Shown: positions 4,139 through 46,850 of the stretch, piece after piece
How the letters are laid out: each line of letters begins with the position of its first letter
Numbering within the stretch: the stretch's first letter is position 1
From: Rhodospirillaceae bacterium
GTDB taxonomy: Bacteria; Pseudomonadota; Alphaproteobacteria; Rhodospirillales; JABHCV01
Reading direction: 5' to 3'
Assembly: GCA_018662005.1 (NCBI GenBank)
Contig: JABJHA010000028.1
Coordinates: 1 to 64,000 of the forward strand
DNA length: 64,000 nt
Translations under genes and position numbers: made by a program
The notes under the pieces: generated by a model
Seen by the model: the letters and a program-made list of their open reading frames with translations, nothing else
What the model was told of the DNA's origin: nothing
The model's database searches: none

Positions 4139-7100
4139 GTGCCGGATGACGCCGTCTTGCAGAAATCCCCGACAAAAAAACCGGATATGACAATCCCGCC
4201 GCGCTTTATTACCGCCGCCAGCCTGTTTGATGGCCATGACGCGGCGATTAACATCATGCGCAGGATTCTACAGGCGCAGGGTGCTGAGGTTATTCACCTG
4301 GGCCATAATCGTTCCGTCGATGAAGTTGTAACCGCCGCTGTTGAAGAAGACGCAGACGCCATTGCGGTCAGTTCTTACCAGGGCGGTCATGTTGAATACT
4401 TCAAGTATATGGTTGAACTGCTGGCCGAAAAGGGACGCCCGGACATTCATGTGTTTGGCGGTGGAGGGGGTGTCATCACGCCTGAAGAAATGGCCGAATT
4501 GAACGATTACGGGGTCAATCGGCTGTACTCTCCTGAAGATGGCCGTCGCATGGGCCTGGAAGGCATGATCGTTGATATGATCGAGCGGACCGGGCAAAAA
4601 AAGGGACCGGCCCGTTCCCCTGATCTGGATGCTTTGGCGGATGGTGATCCAGCTGCCCTGGCTTTGATTATCACCGCACTCGAAAACAGTACGCTCGATG
4701 ATGCTGTGGCCCGAAAGCTTGAAAAACTGGCTGAAAACCATGCTTCTGTGCCGGTGTTGGGTATTACCGGAACCGGTGGGGCCGGGAAATCATCACTGAC
4801 GGACGAAGTGATCCGCCGTTTTCGGCTTTATTCAGCAGAACCCCGCATTGCCGTTGTCGCCGTCGATCCTTCGCGCCGCAAAACCGGTGGGGCGCTTTTG
4901 GGTGACCGCATTCGTATGAACGCCATTTCCGGCGACAATATTTACATGCGCTCGCTGGCCACCCGCGGAGGCGGCAGTGAAGTACCAGAAAGTCTTCCGG
5001 CAATCGTTGGGGCCTGCAAGGCCGCCGGTTTTGACCTCGTTATCATTGAAACCCCCGGCATCGGCCAGGGTGACGCTGGCATCGTTGGCATGGCTGATTT
5101 ATCACTTTATGTGATGACCCCGGAGTTCGGCGCAGCCAGCCAACTTGAAAAGATCGATATGCTCGACTTTGCCGATGTCGTCGCAGTCAATAAACTGGAC
5201 CGCAAGGGTGGTCTTGACGCCATAAGGGATGTCCGCAAACAGGTGCAGCGCAATCGACAGGCCTTTAGCGAAGACGCCGATCAGATGCCGGTCTTCGGCA
5301 CGATTGCTTCCCGGTTTAATGATGCCGGAATTACTGCGTTATATCAAGAGATTACCCGTCAATTCTCAAAAAATGGTTTAACGAAATTTCCCTCAACAAG
5401 CGAGCCGGTCAGTAGCCGGATATCGGAGCCCGGTGACGCCATTGTGCCGCCTGAACGTCAGCGTTATTTGGCTGAAATTGCCGAAACCGTGCGCGGTTAT
5501 CACGACGATGTGGAAAAGCAGGTGATCATTGCCCGTGAGCGACAACAGTTACTGGCTTCAAAAGACATGCTGGGTGGAGACAGCGTTGATCTGGACAAAT
5601 TGATCAACGCCCGTGACGACATGCTGGATCCAAGAGCCGCTAAACTTCTCGAAGAATGGCCGGCGCTCAAGCAAAATTACCGGGGCGAAGAACTGATAAC
5701 GGAAGTTCGTGGCAAGGAAATCCATACCACATTAACCCGCGAAAGCCTGTCCGGCAGCCTTATCCCGCGCGTTTCCCTGCCTGATTTTGTTGATCAGGGC
5801 GAAATTTTGAAATGGCGGATGCGCGAGAATTTACCGGGTCACTTCCCCTACACAGCCGGAGTGTTCCCTTTCAAACGGGCGGGCGAAGATCCAACCCGGA
5901 TGTTTGCCGGTGAAGGCGACGCCAAGCGCACCAACCAGCGCTTTAAGTATTTATCTGCTCATTCCGAAGCCAAGCGCCTATCGACAGCCTTTGATTCGGT
6001 GACTCTCTACGGTTTCAACCCGGACGAACGCCCGGATATTTATGGCAAAGTCGGCAATTCCGGCGTCTCCATCGCAACATTGGATGACATGAAGGAACTC
6101 TATGACGGGTTCGACCTTTGCCAGTCTTCGACATCCGTGTCGATGACGATTAACGGCCCGGCCCCGACCATTCTGGCGTTGTTTCTGAACACCGCCATGG
6201 ACCAGCAAATTGATCGCTTCACCGCGGACAAGAGCAGGGCGCCTGATGCCTCTGAAGAAAAGGAAATCCGCGCCTGGGTCCATGAAAACGTTCGCGGTAC
6301 CGTTCAGGCCGATATCCTGAAAGAGGACCAGGGTCAGAATACCTGTATTTTCTCGACTGAATTCGCCCTGAAAATGATGGCTGACATTCAAGAATACTTC
6401 GTTGAAAACCGGGTCAGGAACTTCTATTCGGTGTCCATATCCGGCTATCACATCGCCGAAGCCGGGGCCAATCCAATCTCGCAACTGGCCTTTACCCTGT
6501 CAAATGGCTTCACTTACGTGGAAACCTACCTTGCACGGGGCATGAATATTGATGATTTCGCCCCTAATTTGTCGTTTTTCTTCTCCAATGGCATGGACCC
6601 GGAATACGCCGTCATGGGCCGGGTGGCGCGCCGTATATGGGCGACGGCCATGCGTGATCGTTACGGGGCGAACGAACGCTCGCAGAAACTGAAATATCAT
6701 GTTCAGACGTCCGGCCGTTCCCTGCATGCCCAGGAAATGTCCTTTAACGACATCCGCACCACCTTGCAGGCGTTGATTGGCATCTATGATAACTGCAACT
6801 CCCTGCACACAAACGCCCATGATGAAGCCTTTACGACGCCAACAGAAGACAGCGTCCGCCGGGCACTGGCAATCCAGATGATCATCAATCGGGAATGGGG
6901 TCTGGCGATGAACGAAAATCCCAATCAAGGGGCATTTGTCATCGACGAGCTCACCGACCTTGTCGAAGAGGCCGTGTTGCAGGAGTTTGAGCGCATTTCA
7001 GAGCGTGGTGGTGTTTTGGGAGCCATGGAAACCGGCTACCAGCGCGGCAAAATACAGGATGAATCCCTGTACTACGAGACCAAAAAGCACGATGGCTCGT

Positions 7101-7393
7101 ACCCCATCGTTGGCGTCAACACCTTCACCAATCCCAACGAAGATGAAGCCGTTATCACGCCTGACCTGGCGCGCTCCACAGATGCCGAAAAGAAGAGTCA
7201 AATCAAACGCCTGCGTGGTTTCCAAAAGGCAAACGCAAAAACCTCCACTGACATGCTGGCGCGCCTGAAGTCAGCGGCCACAAACAACGAAAACGTCTTC
7301 GCGGTGCTCGTTGAGGCAGCCCGCCATTGCTCCCTTGGCGACATTACCGAGGCCCTGTTTGAAGCCGGTGGGCAATACCGTCGCAATATGTAG
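4139..7393 (+). CDS. icmF: fused isobutyryl-CoA mutase (IcmF) with built-in G-protein chaperone
   Basis: Adenosylcobalamin-dependent interconversion of isobutyryl-CoA and n-butyryl-CoA (or a related branched acyl-CoA). The 1084 residues carry three parts in IcmF order: an N-terminal B12-binding domain (about 22-150, with DGHDAA at 31-36 providing the cobalt-ligand histidine H33), a MeaI-type GTPase (Walker A GTGGAGKS at 211-218, VNKLDRKGG as the guanine-specificity loop), and the C-terminal TIM-barrel mutase (about 540-1084). The GTPase loads and protects the cofactor in the family. The start is GTG at 4139, preceded by CAGGAGTTAAGGCC; no ATG fits as well. A palindromic operator candidate lies just upstream. 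Selectivity between isobutyryl-, isovaleryl- and pivalyl-CoA cannot be decided here. Confidence 0.95.
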
Positions 7394-7440
7394 TTCCTCT
7401 AACGGGTGACATCTTAAATCCATTGGGTTTATATAAGCCC

Positions 7441-7668
7441 ATGAACACTCATAAAAAACATGGCGTCGAAGTCCTGGTCGAGTTGCACTACACCGCCGGG
7501 CGTGCGGTCCGGGTCGTCGCCATCGATCCGGTTACCGGGACAGAAGTCACCATGGTCGGCGATGCAAAGCGCAGTGAAGCCGAATTAAAGCGTTTGGCGG
7601 CGAACAAGCTGATGTATGTGCTCAACAAAAAGAAAAATGCCGAAAAGCCGGAAGGCGACCTTTTCTAG
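7441..7668 (+). CDS. small conserved-looking hypothetical protein
   Basis: This 75-residue product is not recognised. It has a beta-rich first half (GVEVLVELHYTAGR, VRVVAIDPVTGTEV) followed by a basic, Lys-rich helix ending KKKNAEKPEGD. There are no cysteines, signal peptide or membrane segment. The ATG at 7441 has a poor ribosome site; a TTG at 7423 would add six residues and sits behind GGGTGA, so the start is uncertain. It lies 47 bp after icmF and about 130 bp before rpiB on the same strand. Confidence 0.6.
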   Translation: MNTHKKHGVEVLVELHYTAGRAVRVVAIDPVTGTEVTMVGDAKRSEAELKRLAANKLMYVLNKKKNAEKPEGDLF

Positions 7669-7797
7669 CAAAACAATATGTATTTACCTGCGCTTGTGCT
7701 TGTGGTTTGTTGGCAACGGGTGCGGATATGTGGTACGTTTAAAAATCCTGGGAATAACCCATTCGTTTTTGATCTTGTCTGAGTGCAAGGGGCCTTT

Positions 7798-8238
7798 ATG
7801 TCTTCTGAAACCATCGCCATTGCCAGCGACCATGCTGGCTTCGATTTGAAAAGTGAACTGAAACAGGTCCTGTCCGAGCTTGGTTTTGCGGCTCTTGATC
7901 TGGGAGCCGATAACAAGGACTCCGTTGATTATCCGGATTTCGGTTACGCCATGGCAGGGGCGCTGAAGCAAGGCGAGGCGACCCGCGGCATTCTGGTATG
8001 TGGAAGCGGCATCGGTATTTCCATCGCTGCAAACCGCCATCCGGTTATCCGCGCCGCCCTGATCCATGATGCACTGGGAGCAAAAATGTCCCGCCTTCAC
8101 AATGATGCCAATGTCATCGTCTTCGGTGGCCGCATGATTGGCCCGGACCTGGCACAGGACTGTCTTAAAGTATTTCTGGAAACTGAATTCGAGGGCGGGC
8201 GCCATGCCCGGCGGGTCGACAAACTTTCAAATCCATAA
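7798..8238 (+). CDS. rpiB: ribose-5-phosphate isomerase B
   Basis: Interconverts ribose-5-phosphate and ribulose-5-phosphate in the pentose phosphate pathway. The 146 residues match the RpiB/LacAB family: ASDHAGF at 9-15 supplies the substrate-binding Asp/His, and ILVCGSGIGIS (C68) carries the catalytic cysteine loop. ATG at 7798 is chosen because it follows CAAGGGGCC at good spacing; an upstream GTG at 7783 would overlap that ribosome site. glyA follows 33 bp downstream, a common pairing in alphaproteobacteria. Confidence 0.94.
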   Translation: MSSETIAIASDHAGFDLKSELKQVLSELGFAALDLGADNKDSVDYPDFGYAMAGALKQGEATRGILVCGSGIGISIAANRHPVIRAALIHDALGAKMSRLHNDANVIVFGGRMIGPDLAQDCLKVFLETEFEGGRHARRVDKLSNP

Positions 8239-42752: not shown

Positions 42753-43625
42753 ATGGCGTCGAAAAAATTAGCTTTCATCGGTCTTGGTGTTATGGGCTAT
42801 CCGATGGCAGGTCATTTGGCCAAAGCCGGACACGATGTCACCGTTTACAATCGCACCACCGCCAAGGCTGAAGCCTGGAGCAAGGAATTCGGTGGCTCTT
42901 TCGCCGAAACCCCGGTCCAGGCTGCCGAAGGTTGCGAAATTGTTTTCGCCTGCGTCGGCAATGATGATGATCTGCGCAGCGTCACCTTTGGTGAAGACGG
43001 AATCCTTGCCGGCATGGACGAAGGCTCTATTTTTGTCGACCACACCACGGCTTCGGCTGATGTGGCGCGGGAAGTCTACGCCGCCGCAAAAGAAATGAAC
43101 AAACGCTTCCTTGATGGCCCGGTTTCAGGTGGCCAGGCGGGAGCCGAAAACGGACAGCTGACAATCATGCTGGGTGGTGATGAAGATGCTTTTGATGCGA
43201 CCAGTGACATTATGGAAGCCTACGGCAAAGCCGTCACCCTTATGGGAGATGCAGGGGCAGGCCAACTAACCAAGATGGTCAATCAGATCTGTATCGCAGG
43301 ACTTGTTCAGGGGCTTTCCGAAGGCTTGAACTTTGCCAGCGAAGCGGGGCTTGATGTCAAGCGGGTGGTCGATGTCATTTCCAAGGGCGCTGCCCAGTCA
43401 TGGCAAATGGAAAATCGGGCCTATACAATGGCTGACGATGAATTCGATTTCGGCTTCGCTGTCGACTGGATGCGCAAAGACTTGGGCATCTGCATGAACG
43501 AAGCCGGTAATAATGGCGCCAAACTACCCGTGACAAAGATCGTTGCCGGTTATTATGAGCAGATAGCCGAACGCGGCGGTAACCGTTGGGACACCTCGAG
43601 TTTGATCCGCCTGTTGAAGGATTAA
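42753..43625 (+). CDS. beta-hydroxyacid dehydrogenase (3-hydroxyisobutyrate/tartronate semialdehyde reductase family)
   Basis: NAD(P)-dependent oxidoreductase of 290 residues. Rossmann motif GLGVMGYPMAGHL at about 10-22, substrate motif DGPVSGGQAGAENGQLTIM, and catalytic K174 in LTKMVNQ. Members act on 3-hydroxyisobutyrate, tartronate semialdehyde or succinic semialdehyde; not resolved here. Arg (YNRT, about 34) after the second strand suggests NADP preference. Its stop overlaps by 4 bp the stop of the convergent methyltransferase gene. Confidence 0.92.
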   Translation: MASKKLAFIGLGVMGYPMAGHLAKAGHDVTVYNRTTAKAEAWSKEFGGSFAETPVQAAEGCEIVFACVGNDDDLRSVTFGEDGILAGMDEGSIFVDHTTASADVAREVYAAAKEMNKRFLDGPVSGGQAGAENGQLTIMLGGDEDAFDATSDIMEAYGKAVTLMGDAGAGQLTKMVNQICIAGLVQGLSEGLNFASEAGLDVKRVVDVISKGAAQSWQMENRAYTMADDEFDFGFAVDWMRKDLGICMNEAGNNGAKLPVTKIVAGYYEQIAERGGNRWDTSSLIRLLKD

Positions 43626-44407
43626 GCGGGCTTCGTCATCACCAGTTCGATTGTGTGGGCGTCAAAGCCGCCAGCGATTTCACGGGTTTTCTCGCTGTTG
43701 CTGCCTGAAAAATAATCGAAGGACCTGATTTCCGTGATGTCGGTAAATCCGGCTGCGGCAAACAGGGCGATATATTGATCCTTCAATGACGCGCCAACCA
43801 CGCATTCCGCCCACAGTTCCGGGTCGGATTTGCATTGTTCTGAAATCGCCTTGTCGACGACAATATCGGCCAGTTGAACCTTGCCGCCTGGCTTCAGTAC
43901 GCGAAAGATTTCGGCAAAACTCTTGGCCTTGTCAGGAATCAGGTTGAGAACACCGTTCGAGGTCACCACATCGACGCTTTCATCGGGCAGCGGGATGTCT
44001 TCCGCCTCGCCAGCCAACGTCGATACGTTTTTAGCGCCTGAGCTATCAATATTGTCTTGTAGTTTGTTAAGCATTGCCGGGGTCATATCCAGGCCATGCA
44101 CGTGACCTTCTTCGCCAACGGCAAGACCGGCAATCAGGCTGTCTGTACCAGCCCCGGAGCCAATGTCGAGAACGATGTCTCCATGTTTGATCACCTCTGC
44201 CGCATGGGGATAGCCGACACCGGCAAAACTTTCCATTGCCGTTGTTGAAATTTGATCCAGCAATGGGTCGGGATAACCAACAAACCGGCAGGCGTCGCGC
44301 CCGGTCGGGAAGTGGAATTCCTTGTCAGGATTGCGCGCTACATCGGTATACATCACCTTAACGGCGGCGATGATGAATTCTCGTTTATCGGATAGTACGG
44401 CGACCAT
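43622..44407 (-). CDS. SAM-dependent methyltransferase, ArsM-like paralogue 1
   Basis: Class I methyltransferase of 261 residues: SAM motif I VLDIGSGAGTDS, motif II GLDMTPAML, and FRVLKPGGKVQLADIVV. The layout follows arsenite methyltransferase ArsM, but the usual SLGCGNP-type cysteine segment reads SFAGVGYPHA and the usual SNCV reads SNGV; a Cys remains in WAECVVGA. Arsenic is thus not a safe substrate call. N-terminal YTDVARNPDKEFHFPTGR matches the second paralogue at 45477-46274. It is third gene of the sigma/anti-sigma operon, 36 bp after the anti-sigma gene, and starts behind GGGGGGAG. Confidence 0.85.
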   Translation of the reverse strand: MVAVLSDKREFIIAAVKVMYTDVARNPDKEFHFPTGRDACRFVGYPDPLLDQISTTAMESFAGVGYPHAAEVIKHGDIVLDIGSGAGTDSLIAGLAVGEEGHVHGLDMTPAMLNKLQDNIDSSGAKNVSTLAGEAEDIPLPDESVDVVTSNGVLNLIPDKAKSFAEIFRVLKPGGKVQLADIVVDKAISEQCKSDPELWAECVVGASLKDQYIALFAAAGFTDITEIRSFDYFSGSNSEKTREIAGGFDAHTIELVMTKPA

Positions 44408-44443
44408 TATTATCTCCCCCCGGAGAAAATTATTCAGCCAATA

Positions 44444-44695
44444 TTAAAAATCTTTAAGCAAGCCATCAATTTTGTTTTTCAGGCTATCAGGAACTGCTTC
44501 GCTGTTGGCGTTCTTAATGCGTTTTTTCAACACACGTTCAAAATCGGCCCGCGAATAACAGCCCCGACAAGTTTGCAAGTGGGCATCAATCTGAGCCTGT
44601 TTCTCGGCGTTGACCTCGCCATTAAGAAACTCAATCAAATGCGCAAGGACATCCTCGCAGCTGATCTTGTCTGAATGATCATGTTTATCAGTCAT
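44444..44695 (-). CDS. RsrA-like zinc-binding anti-sigma factor
   Basis: An 83-residue protein of the zinc-associated anti-sigma type. The metal/redox ligands are spaced C13-x25-H39-x3-C43-x2-C46 (SCEDVLAHL, DAHLQTCRGC), the arrangement of actinobacterial RsrA, which releases its sigma factor when the cysteines form a disulfide. FLNGEV and DSLKNKIDGLL also match that family. It overlaps the sigma gene by 8 bp on the same strand, which fixes its partner. Redox control is inferred from the motif. Mycothiol dependence should not be assumed in a proteobacterium. Confidence 0.88.
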   Translation of the reverse strand: MTDKHDHSDKISCEDVLAHLIEFLNGEVNAEKQAQIDAHLQTCRGCYSRADFERVLKKRIKNANSEAVPDSLKNKIDGLLKDF

Positions 44696-45335
44696 GGCTT
44701 ATACCTTCCTGATTGGATTGAGGACGAATTCCGGCGTCCATGGCTTCTTGCCATAGTGCTTTTTGCAGCTTCGATCTAGCCCGTTTAAGGCGGGAACGAA
44801 TGGTGCCGATTGGCACATCCATGATTTCGGCTGTTTCTTCGTAAGAAAACCCCTGAACCTCAATGAGCATGACGACGGTTTTGAATTCGTCTGACAGGGC
44901 GTTAATGGCATTATCGATTTCTTCGCGCAGCAGGTTGTTGACGAAGGTTTGCTCCGGGTTATCCCACCACAACAGAAAAGGCTGGTGAAGGGATTCAAAG
45001 AGTGAGAACTGCTCGTCATCATCTTCGCCGGGTTCTTCCACGTACGGGACTGTTTCGCCTTCAGTCTTTTGCTTGCGGTACGAGGATATAAAGGTGTTTG
45101 TGAGGATACGGAAAATCCAGGCGCGAAAACGATCCCGCTGCTCAAGCTTGGCGAACGCGGCCCAGGCCTTGCTGACGGTTTCGGCGACCAAGTCTTCGGC
45201 GGTGTCGGGATTACGAGACAAACGCAGCGCGGTATTGTAGAGCGACTCCATGTGTTTGGTAATTTCACGCGAGAAAAACTCCCGATCTGTCAGGTTGTCA
45301 GCCAGTGTTAATACTCCCCATATACAAGGAGCCAA
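44688..45335 (-). CDS. ECF sigma factor, SigR-like (ECF12-type)
   Basis: A 215-residue sigma-70 family member with only region 2 (about 27-90: LYNTALRLSRNPDTAEDLVAE..WIFRILTNTFISSYRK) and region 4 (about 135-195: YEETAEIMDVPIGTIRSRLKRA). The LTNTFISSYRK run is a mark of the SigR/ECF12 group. The start is uncertain: TTG at 45335 has no ribosome site nearby, whereas a CTG at 45305 lies 8 nt after GGGGAG and gives a natural N-terminus; no ATG occurs before residue 29. A candidate self-recognised promoter GGAAC-16-CGTC lies at 45366-45390. Confidence 0.92.
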   Translation of the reverse strand: MAPCIWGVLTLADNLTDREFFSREITKHMESLYNTALRLSRNPDTAEDLVAETVSKAWAAFAKLEQRDRFRAWIFRILTNTFISSYRKQKTEGETVPYVEEPGEDDDEQFSLFESLHQPFLLWWDNPEQTFVNNLLREEIDNAINALSDEFKTVVMLIEVQGFSYEETAEIMDVPIGTIRSRLKRARSKLQKALWQEAMDAGIRPQSNQEGISHD

Positions 45336-45365
45336 CGATAAGAAAACCGACTCCTCTTATAGATT

Positions 45366-45390
45366 GACGCAAAACGCAAAAAATAGTTCC
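45366..45390 (-). promoter_or_regulatory. candidate ECF-type promoter of the sigma/anti-sigma/methyltransferase operon
   Basis: Read on the minus strand: -35 GGAAC at 45390-45386, exactly 16 nt spacer, -10 CGTC at 45369-45366. The start site would fall near 45358, upstream of the sigma gene. The identical pair with identical spacing occurs before the dsrE-like gene. Confidence 0.7.
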
Positions 45391-45421
45391 CAAAAAAGAT
45401 GATTTTTTCGGAACTATTTTT
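45379..45421 (-). terminator. long hairpin after methyltransferase 2, overlapping the sigma promoter
   Basis: Twelve-base arms AAAAATAGTTCC (45379-45390) and GGAACTATTTTT (45410-45421), then a C-C mismatch and an inner A6/T6 stem closing a GATGA loop. With T-runs on both strands it could terminate in either direction. It lies 56 bp beyond the methyltransferase-2 stop. Confidence 0.75.
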
Positions 45422-45476
45422 ATTTATTAAAGAAAACAAGAGAGTAGAGGGTATCTACTCCCTTGTTTTTGATCAA

Positions 45477-46274
45477 TCAGGATGGTTTTACAGCCAACAG
45501 AGAGATCGCTTTGACGCCCCATTTATCGGCAGCGCCGGTGGCGTTGTCGGAAATGAATTCATAAGGCATCGGCTCTACGGTAACCACATGCAGTCCGCTA
45601 AGCTTGATGGCCTTGCAATAATCGTCTTCCTGCATGGCCCCGCCAATGCAAGCGGCCCACAAGTCGGCATTACAGGAAACACCTTCGGGCAATGGTTTTT
45701 CGCTGACGATATCGGAAATGGCAAGGCGTCCGCCGGGCTTGAGAATACGGGCGATTTCCGAGAAAACTTCGGCCTTGTCCGGCGAGAGATTGAAAACACC
45801 GTTACTGATAACGGCGTCGTAGCTGGCGTCGGCCGCCGGCAAATCCTCTATATAGGATTTAACGTAGTCGATATTTGTGAAACCGGCTTCATCACGCAAG
45901 GCTGCTGCCTTGGCGCGTTGGGCGTCTGTCATGTCGATACCGGTGACGGAACCTGTATCGCCAACGTGCAGAGAAGCGATGAAGGTATCGGTGCCTGATC
46001 CACTACCCAAATCAATGACGCTTTCGCCCTGCTTCAGTTTCGCCAGGTGAAAATAGTAACCGACACCGGCAAATGATTTAATGGCGTCGGCCGGAATTTT
46101 GTCCAGGTCGGCAGGCTTGTAACCCAGGCGTTCGCATAACGCCCGGCCCATTTCAAAGTGAAACTCTCCATCAGGGTTTTCGGCGACACGCTGGTACATG
46201 TCTTTAACCTGATTTTCCAGAGATTCCCGATCAACGTTCTGATCGATAAAATTATGTGCTGTGGCGTTTTGCAT
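45477..46274 (-). CDS. SAM-dependent methyltransferase, ArsM-like paralogue 2
   Basis: A 265-residue class I methyltransferase closely related to the product of 43622-44407. Motif I VIDLGSGSGTDTF, motif II GIDMTDAQR, SNGVFNLSPDK, ARILKPGGRLAISDIV. As in paralogue 1, the ArsM SNC cysteine is Gly and the glycine-cysteine-glycine segment reads SFAGVGYYF; cysteines kept are ALCERLGYK (N-terminal), VSCNADLW and ACIGGA, all with counterparts in paralogue 1, plus DDYCKA. The substrate is unknown. It follows the dsrE-like gene by 68 bp on the same strand and probably shares its promoter. Confidence 0.85.
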   Translation of the reverse strand: MQNATAHNFIDQNVDRESLENQVKDMYQRVAENPDGEFHFEMGRALCERLGYKPADLDKIPADAIKSFAGVGYYFHLAKLKQGESVIDLGSGSGTDTFIASLHVGDTGSVTGIDMTDAQRAKAAALRDEAGFTNIDYVKSYIEDLPAADASYDAVISNGVFNLSPDKAEVFSEIARILKPGGRLAISDIVSEKPLPEGVSCNADLWAACIGGAMQEDDYCKAIKLSGLHVVTVEPMPYEFISDNATGAADKWGVKAISLLAVKPS

Positions 46275-46342
46275 AACTGTCTTCCTTAATACTTGGGGGT
46301 GAGCAACCGGGCTTACCAGTTGCTCACCATGTGTGTACGGAT

Positions 46343-46702
46343 TTAGATAAGAATCTGTGCGCCTTCGCTAACGAAACCGATGGTGCGGGCTGCACCGGCG
46401 ATTTCAGCACCAGATACCAGATCATCTTCGCTAATGCCGCGAGATTTGGCGCATACCGGGCATACCCAGATCTGACCGCCATTTTCCTGATAAGCGCCCA
46501 GCAGTTCGCTAAGCGGCGGATAACCTTCGGCCTGTTTGTCGGTGGCGCCATCTTTTGTCACAAGATCGACCGATGATGCGGTCAGGAACATTGCGGTTTC
46601 GTTATCCATGGCGGCAGAGGCGCTGCCAACGATAAAGGCGACGGATGCACGTTCCAGATCTTCATTGCCGTAGGTGCAGTTGACGAGATATTTGTTGCTC
46701 AT
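46343..46702 (-). CDS. DsrE-family small protein with CxxC motif
   Basis: A 119-residue single-domain protein of the DsrE/DsrF-like fold: an N-terminal strand YLVNCTYG, FIVGSASAAMDNETAMFLTASSV typical of the family, and C81-P-V-C84 in IWVCPVC where sulfur-relay members carry reactive cysteine. ATG at 46702 follows AGGAAG; longer frames upstream run across the promoter. It is the first gene of an operon with methyltransferase 2. A role in thiol or sulfur transfer is a family-based inference. Confidence 0.86.
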   Translation of the reverse strand: MSNKYLVNCTYGNEDLERASVAFIVGSASAAMDNETAMFLTASSVDLVTKDGATDKQAEGYPPLSELLGAYQENGGQIWVCPVCAKSRGISEDDLVSGAEIAGAARTIGFVSEGAQILI

Positions 46703-46767
46703 GATAGTTAGCTTCCTGTGTTGTCTGTTCGGAGGTCCCGCCGTTATTCGGCGTCCCCAACCATTCA

Positions 46768-46792
46768 GACGGTTGCTGAGCAAAAAAGTTCC
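46768..46792 (-). promoter_or_regulatory. candidate ECF-type promoter of the dsrE-like/methyltransferase operon
   Basis: Minus strand: GGGAAC with -35 core GGAAC at 46792-46788, 16 nt spacer, -10 CGTC at 46771-46768. The start site would lie near 46760, about 58 nt before the dsrE-like ATG. It matches the motif before the sigma operon base for base in both boxes and in spacing. Confidence 0.7.
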
Positions 46793-46812
46793 CGGACCGG
46801 GAAAACTTTTTT
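46782..46812 (-). terminator. terminator of the mazG-lipoprotein operon, overlapping the dsrE promoter
   Basis: Arms AAAAAAGTT (46782-46790) with CCCG (46791-46794), paired to CGGG (46798-46801) and AACTTTTTT (46804-46812), with a two-A bulge. Read on the minus strand it is a GC stem ending in six T, 39 bp after the lipoprotein stop. Confidence 0.8.
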
Positions 46813-46850
46813 AATTTTATTGAAAATAATGGGAGGAGGGGGCTTTCAAA

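Follow-up and report, generated by a model that had tools for sequence, protein, structure and literature searches.

Comparative sequence analysis of an ECF sigma/antisigma module with predicted autoregulation, a DsrE-like protein and two ArsM-related methyltransferases from a Rhodospirillaceae bacterium

The DNA analysed here, designated the window, is a stretch of 64,000 nt (positions 1 to 64,000, forward strand, of contig JABJHA010000028.1) from the genome assembly GCA_018662005.1 of a Rhodospirillaceae bacterium, which comprises 53 contigs. The window contains five consecutive minus-strand genes that form two operons: one codes for a DsrE-like protein and a methyltransferase (MT1), and the other for an extracytoplasmic function (ECF) sigma factor, an antisigma factor and a second methyltransferase (MT2). 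Reading from position 46793 down to 43622, the order is as follows:

46768..46793, minus strand: P1, predicted ECF-type promoter (GGGAAC-N17-GTC) of the DsrE-MT1 operon; it also fits the strict pattern, and in relatives the motif lies 5′ of the first module gene
46343..46702, minus strand: DsrE-like protein, 119 aa, with the sequence CPVC (PF02635, 65.4 bits)
45477..46274, minus strand: MT1, ArsM-related methyltransferase, 265 aa (ArsM-type models; in the 15-row MT1 clade)
45366..45391, minus strand: P2, predicted ECF-type promoter (GGGAAC-N17-GTC) of the sigma operon; motif conserved in relatives
44688..45335, minus strand: ECF sigma factor, 215 aa from a TTG, the start codon being uncertain; Leu183 in the recognition helix, and the run LTNTFISSYRK
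44444..44695, minus strand: putative cytosolic zinc-type antisigma factor, 83 aa (PF13490; TIGR03988 at 55.9 bits, below cut-off)
43622..44407, minus strand: MT2, ArsM-related methyltransferase, 261 aa (ArsM-type models; in the 36-row MT2 clade)

Every gene assignment is backed by Pfam and NCBIfam, with the NCBIfam scores staying below the thresholds of the closest named families. All the elements described in an earlier note, which was made from the sequence alone, were recovered, including the 83 aa antisigma factor, the LTNTFISSYRK run and the 8 bp shared by the sigma and antisigma reading frames.

The two GGGAAC-N17-GTC sites (45391-45366 and 46793-46768), one 5′ of each operon, did not figure in that note. 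Their sequences, GGGAACTTTTTTGCTCAGCAACCGTC and GGGAACTATTTTTTGCGTTTTGCGTC, have both promoter elements in common, with a spacing of 17 bases in each. The presence of the same ECF-type promoter at the head of both operons suggests that the sigma factor probably controls its own synthesis and that of all three effectors. Nevertheless, the bare pattern GGGAAC-N16-18-GTC is not special in the genome containing the window, with 68 matches versus 172 for the reversed control, and the weight of the two sites depends on their conservation in relatives. One arm of an inverted repeat (45387-45424 and 46783-46813) holds the -35 element of each promoter. These repeats were considered as operators and rejected, because a repeat of at least 6 bases occurs at only 6 of 56 sites, both window sites included; not being conserved in most relatives, they were taken as incidental, probably arms of terminators.

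The sigma gene has a patchy distribution. It is missing from the three other genomes of the same genus (one of them 67% complete) and from one of two others of the family (E 1e-10), and occurs in only two of 385 genomes drawn from the class, the one containing the window among them (E 1e-25). A scan of named genomes, from which 80 loci were kept of 166 relatives, extended the family to many phyla, beyond the alphaproteobacterial setting in which the earlier note had placed it. The patchy presence and wide reach suggest horizontal transfer or frequent loss. We scanned 82 loci with profiles seeded from the window genes, and 52 of them were counted as core. Left out were L095, L097, L099 and L101, which lie outside the sigma clade, and 26 loci of lower similarity (L102-L127); in none of these 30 does a match to MT or DsrE exceed 100 bits. 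There are near-copies among the rows (for example L053/L056, L065/L067 and L061/L064) and the counts that follow are thus not fully independent.

Within the core loci, which span several phyla, the antisigma gene adjoins the sigma gene in 51 of 52, and MT2 lies downstream on the same strand in 36. An MT1-type gene is found in 15 (12 upstream on the same strand, three divergent) and a dsrE-like gene in 25, 13 of which, mostly gamma- and betaproteobacterial, lack an MT gene; eight loci have all five genes. At least one MT or DsrE gene is present in 49 of the 52 core loci. The recurrence of this arrangement across phyla indicates that the association is more than chance, and the neighbours do not vary freely, order and motifs being conserved, though MT1, DsrE and even MT2 are missing in some lineages. 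A cupin gene is situated upstream of the sigma gene, on the same strand, in L062, L063 and L072, and on the Chelatococcus plasmid pCO-6 (L153:7124-7567).

The promoter motif is strongly enriched in front of module genes. Of 108 regions 5′ of these genes (23,760 bases), 31 contain GGAAC-N15-17-CGTC, against an expectation of about 1.4, derived from 78 matches in 1,327,714 bases with the 31 included. Up to 1.7 kb 5′ of the sigma gene, GGAAC[CT]-CGTC, corresponding to the GGGAAC motif that was taken from the window and then tested in other loci, is present in 32 of the 36 MT-type loci, and GGGACC[CT]-CGTC in all 13 DsrE-only loci, this last count being post hoc because the motif was first spotted by eye and counted afterwards. 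No locus contains both types and there is no crossover between MT-type and DsrE-only modules. In total there were 37 matches to the first motif and 19 to the second, versus 1.44 and 0.14 expected in the same windows at the rates of the remainder of the loci, and one match each for the reversed motifs.

The two motif types correspond to two types of sigma factor. At residue 183 of the recognition helix, all 34 MT-type sequences have Leu and all 15 DsrE-type sequences have Met, the latter including L060 and L076, in which no DsrE or MT was detected; likewise, position 176 usually carries Val or Ile in the Leu183 type versus Pro in the Met183 type. Both types occur within one genome in two cases, G436 (L082 and L092) and G433 (L059 and L078). 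This covariation between sigma factor and motif is the best evidence that the sigma factor would read these sites.

The earlier note had described the pair as SigR/RsrA-like and expected the sigma factor in the ECF12/SigR group. However, its score on TIGR02947, the SigH/SigR model, is only 145 bits against a cut-off of 251.55, and in all three actinobacterial genomes examined a true SigH (355-383 bits) and the module sigma factor (107-123 bits) are present separately. A tree built, as was the residue comparison, without the split frames L050, L096 and L100 placed the module sequences in a clade of 49 rows (support 95/88), with three SigH rows outside. Since mycobacterial SigH, at 119 bits, is the solved protein that it matches best, the term SigR-like is fair; by its TIGR02947 score and its place in the tree, we regard the sigma factor as SigR-like, yet not SigR, and membership of the SigR/ECF12 group was not upheld. 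Additionally, PMC7406223 describes the class I antisigmas of ECF12 as all actinobacterial, with few proteobacterial ECF12s and none of these with an antisigma in its neighbourhood, a picture at odds with this module. The antisigma factor contains the RsrA-type pattern C13-x25-H39-x3-C43-x2-C46, and the four residues are kept in 55 of 55 rows. It scores 55.9 bits on the RsrA model TIGR03988, under the cut-off of 62.5, and its closest solved match is RsrA (30.3 bits). A thiol/zinc switch is therefore likely by homology.

The DsrE-like protein belongs to family PF02635 (65.4 bits, gathering score 22.7); with the DsrE2 model, which has a cut-off of 210, it scores just 26 bits. Its CPVC sequence corresponds to C81/C84, and the CxxC is invariant in all 25 module copies, including that of the window. 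A second DsrE-like gene is found 3′ of the antisigma gene in L076, L081, L086 and L089.

Both methyltransferases can be aligned with ArsM structures (for 5evj, 111.4 bits with MT2 and 107.3 with MT1) and score 207.8 (MT2) and 214.9 bits (MT1) on the ArsM subfamily model NF008823, under its cut-off of 263. Three cysteines of ArsM bind arsenite. All 51 module copies have Val64 and Gly152 in place of the cysteines of FWGCG and SNCV, and C202 is retained in all 49 copies without a gap there; the description of these enzymes as ArsM-like therefore holds for homology and fails for two of the three cysteines, whose loss makes arsenite an unlikely substrate. In the tree, MT1 and MT2 are separated by a branch with 100/99 support, indicating that the pair is old. 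Seven alphaproteobacterial loci (L045, at 6931-8148, L052, L054, L062, L063, L068 and L072) have an MT2 with a MerC-like C-terminal membrane tail, which was identified by Pfam in the L045 copy (31.4 bits, cut-off 27.6), the six others being homologous to the L045 tail. In the window, MT2 overlaps stop to stop by 4 bp (43622-43625) with a convergent gene, named by eye as hydroxyisobutyrate dehydrogenase-like (42753-43625). A third, different S-adenosylmethionine methyltransferase is encoded near the module in L045, L058, L062, L063 and L072 (265-539 bits to the L045 copy).

Comparison among relatives showed the cluster, its conservation and its motifs, the sigma-motif covariation, the cysteines of the antisigma and DsrE proteins and the cysteine loss relative to ArsM; judged on these sequence data, it is very probably a genuine regulatory module, old and widespread, that has dedicated outputs and is predicted to regulate itself. 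The compact sigma/zinc-antisigma module of the earlier note, with methyltransferases and DsrE as probable outputs, is thus sustained by the gene order and promoter motifs kept across phyla. For promoter activity, signal, zinc/disulfide mechanism and methyltransferase substrate, we infer the following chain. The small cytosolic zinc antisigma would hold its ECF sigma factor until its conserved C13/H39/C43/C46 site is attacked by a signal that reacts with thiols. This would most likely be a reactive sulfur species (sulfide, persulfide, polysulfide or methanethiol) or the accompanying disulfide stress. The freed sigma factor would then read GGGAAC-N17-GTC before its own operon, resulting in autoregulation, and before that of DsrE and MT1. 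Induced in this way, probably in defence of the cell against reactive sulfur or thiols, would be a DsrE-type sulfur carrier with a CxxC and two methyltransferases of ArsM descent, which, with two of the three arsenite cysteines gone, probably S-methylate sulfide or another thiol. We propose the whole chain, from reactive-sulfur signal through thiol switch to S-methylation, tentatively, giving it slightly less than an even chance. Less probable than this, but conceivable, is a wider scheme in which a horizontally spread sigma/antisigma family is a dedicated reactive-sulfur sensor in charge of detoxification, DsrE delivers sulfur, the ArsM-derived enzymes, no longer binding arsenite, S-methylate it, and two lineages with orthogonal -35 specificities (GGGAAC/Leu183 and GGGACC/Met183) coexist in two genomes.

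Several observations weigh against the reactive-sulfur reading. Four MT-type loci (L062, L063, L072 and L094) are free of the motif. The pattern GGAACYTTTT-N11-12-CGTC has 13 matches in nine genomes, nine at modules and four elsewhere versus four in the control; the DsrE-type motif has 28 in 12 genomes, 17 at modules and 11 elsewhere versus 24 in the reversed control; and the MT-type motif has two sites outside modules in 11 genomes versus two in the control. For the methanethiol S-methyltransferase MddA, an upstream site is present at only one of ten loci placed, of 12 found (L194 and L199 were left out), and MddA scores over the cut-off in only six of 49 module genomes, that of the window being without it. 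Moreover, zinc in such antisigmas may be purely structural, according to PMC7406223, and the MerC-like extension of some MT2 proteins better suits a role in metal resistance.

As a set, the outside sites are not above chance, so that they count through the genes that follow a few of them. An mddA gene (325 bits, cut-off 270) of the Thiogranum genome G449 has a site that starts 166 nt 5′ of it. In two genomes, G433 and G441, orthologous rhodanese genes immediately follow a site; the one in G441 comes directly 3′ of the antisigma gene. G441 also has two genes for DUF6356 membrane proteins behind sites, one of which adjoins an MddA-like gene (231 bits, under the cut-off) that ends before the site. 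A membrane protein encoded between DsrE and sigma in G004, a genome of the same family as that of the window, recurs in the Thiogranum module, where it adjoins MT2, and in the module genome G442, close to an MddA-like gene. In the genome containing the window, an orphan gene for a protein of 250 aa (L134:684-1436, minus strand, contig C20), without match in Pfam or NCBIfam, begins some 65 nt 3′ of a promoter motif that is nearly identical. No regulon membership is claimed for four outside sites: that of this orphan, one between convergent genes, that of a MATE gene in G004, and one in G422. Additionally, a protein of about 72 aa, heavy-metal-associated-like by eye and with no Pfam match for the L165 copy, is encoded beside mddA genes and DUF6356 in L165, L189 and L197.

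The module could instead be a general oxidative or electrophile stress switch like SigR-RsrA, with the methyltransferases acting on some other small molecule (a quinone, electrophile or metabolite, for example) and DsrE in redox repair. SigH and RsrA being the closest solved matches of the pair agrees with this, as do two haloarchaeal plasmids (L154 and L200) in which an MT2 relative lies directly 3′ of an OsmC-family gene. However, the genes behind the same motifs include sulfur genes, and no wide regulon is visible, matches away from modules staying at the control level; we thus consider this explanation unlikely. Resistance to metals or metalloids, with methylation of arsenic, mercury, selenium or tellurium and an antisigma sensing metal at its thiol-zinc site, would account for the ArsM homology and for the seven MerC-like tails, only one of them tested with Pfam. 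It appears improbable, since every module copy has other residues at two of the three ArsM cysteine positions; furthermore, no annotated ars or mer gene is found within about 8 kb of one annotated plasmid module, the extent of that search. Finally, an ordinary ECF sigma factor lying by local accident beside unrelated methyltransferase genes, as its absence from close relatives might suggest, is scarcely credible, because the same order and motifs across several phyla speak strongly against it.

In the literature searched we found no paper describing this gene set, and the sigma group may already carry a number in the ECF classification. If the reactive-sulfur reading is true, the module would give the methylation of sulfide or thiols in bacteria a regulator, and its methyltransferases would be a new enzyme branch, by which marine and soil bacteria could make methylated sulfur in volatile form. 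The two lineages would constitute a naturally occurring pair of sigma-promoter systems, set apart by a single -35 base and a few residues of the sigma factor, and the gene set is small enough for transfer into a laboratory strain and direct testing.

Among known systems, the Mdd S-methyltransferases (MddA, MddH, MddM1 and MddM2) are those with an output similar to the one proposed here, and a module-type promoter precedes one mddA gene; in contrast, the window enzymes are an ArsM-related branch. According to PMC12904073, H2S and methanethiol are S-methylated by Mdd enzymes and also induce mdd genes, with H2O2 as a further inducer of mddM1 and mddM2; sigma/antisigma control of mdd genes was not found in the literature searched, as far as the texts were available. 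DsrE/DsrF-like sulfur carriers share with the window protein family PF02635, a solved relative (3mc3) and the invariant cysteines, whereas the latter is a CxxC variant encoded by a single gene, with no second DsrE-type gene among the listed open reading frames of the operon. ArsM (PRK11873/NF008823) is alignable through its structures with the window methyltransferase domain, although the window enzymes score under the model cut-off and have Val and Gly for two cysteines, C202 alone being kept. The closest resemblance of the regulatory pair is to SigR-RsrA and SigH-RshA (ECF12), with SigH and RsrA as best solved matches, the same zinc/thiol residue pattern and an overlapping gene pair. It differs from them in scoring under the family-model cut-offs, in forming its own clade and in coexisting with a true SigH in three genomes and, whereas SigR controls a large regulon, the module appears as a small, dedicated gene set.

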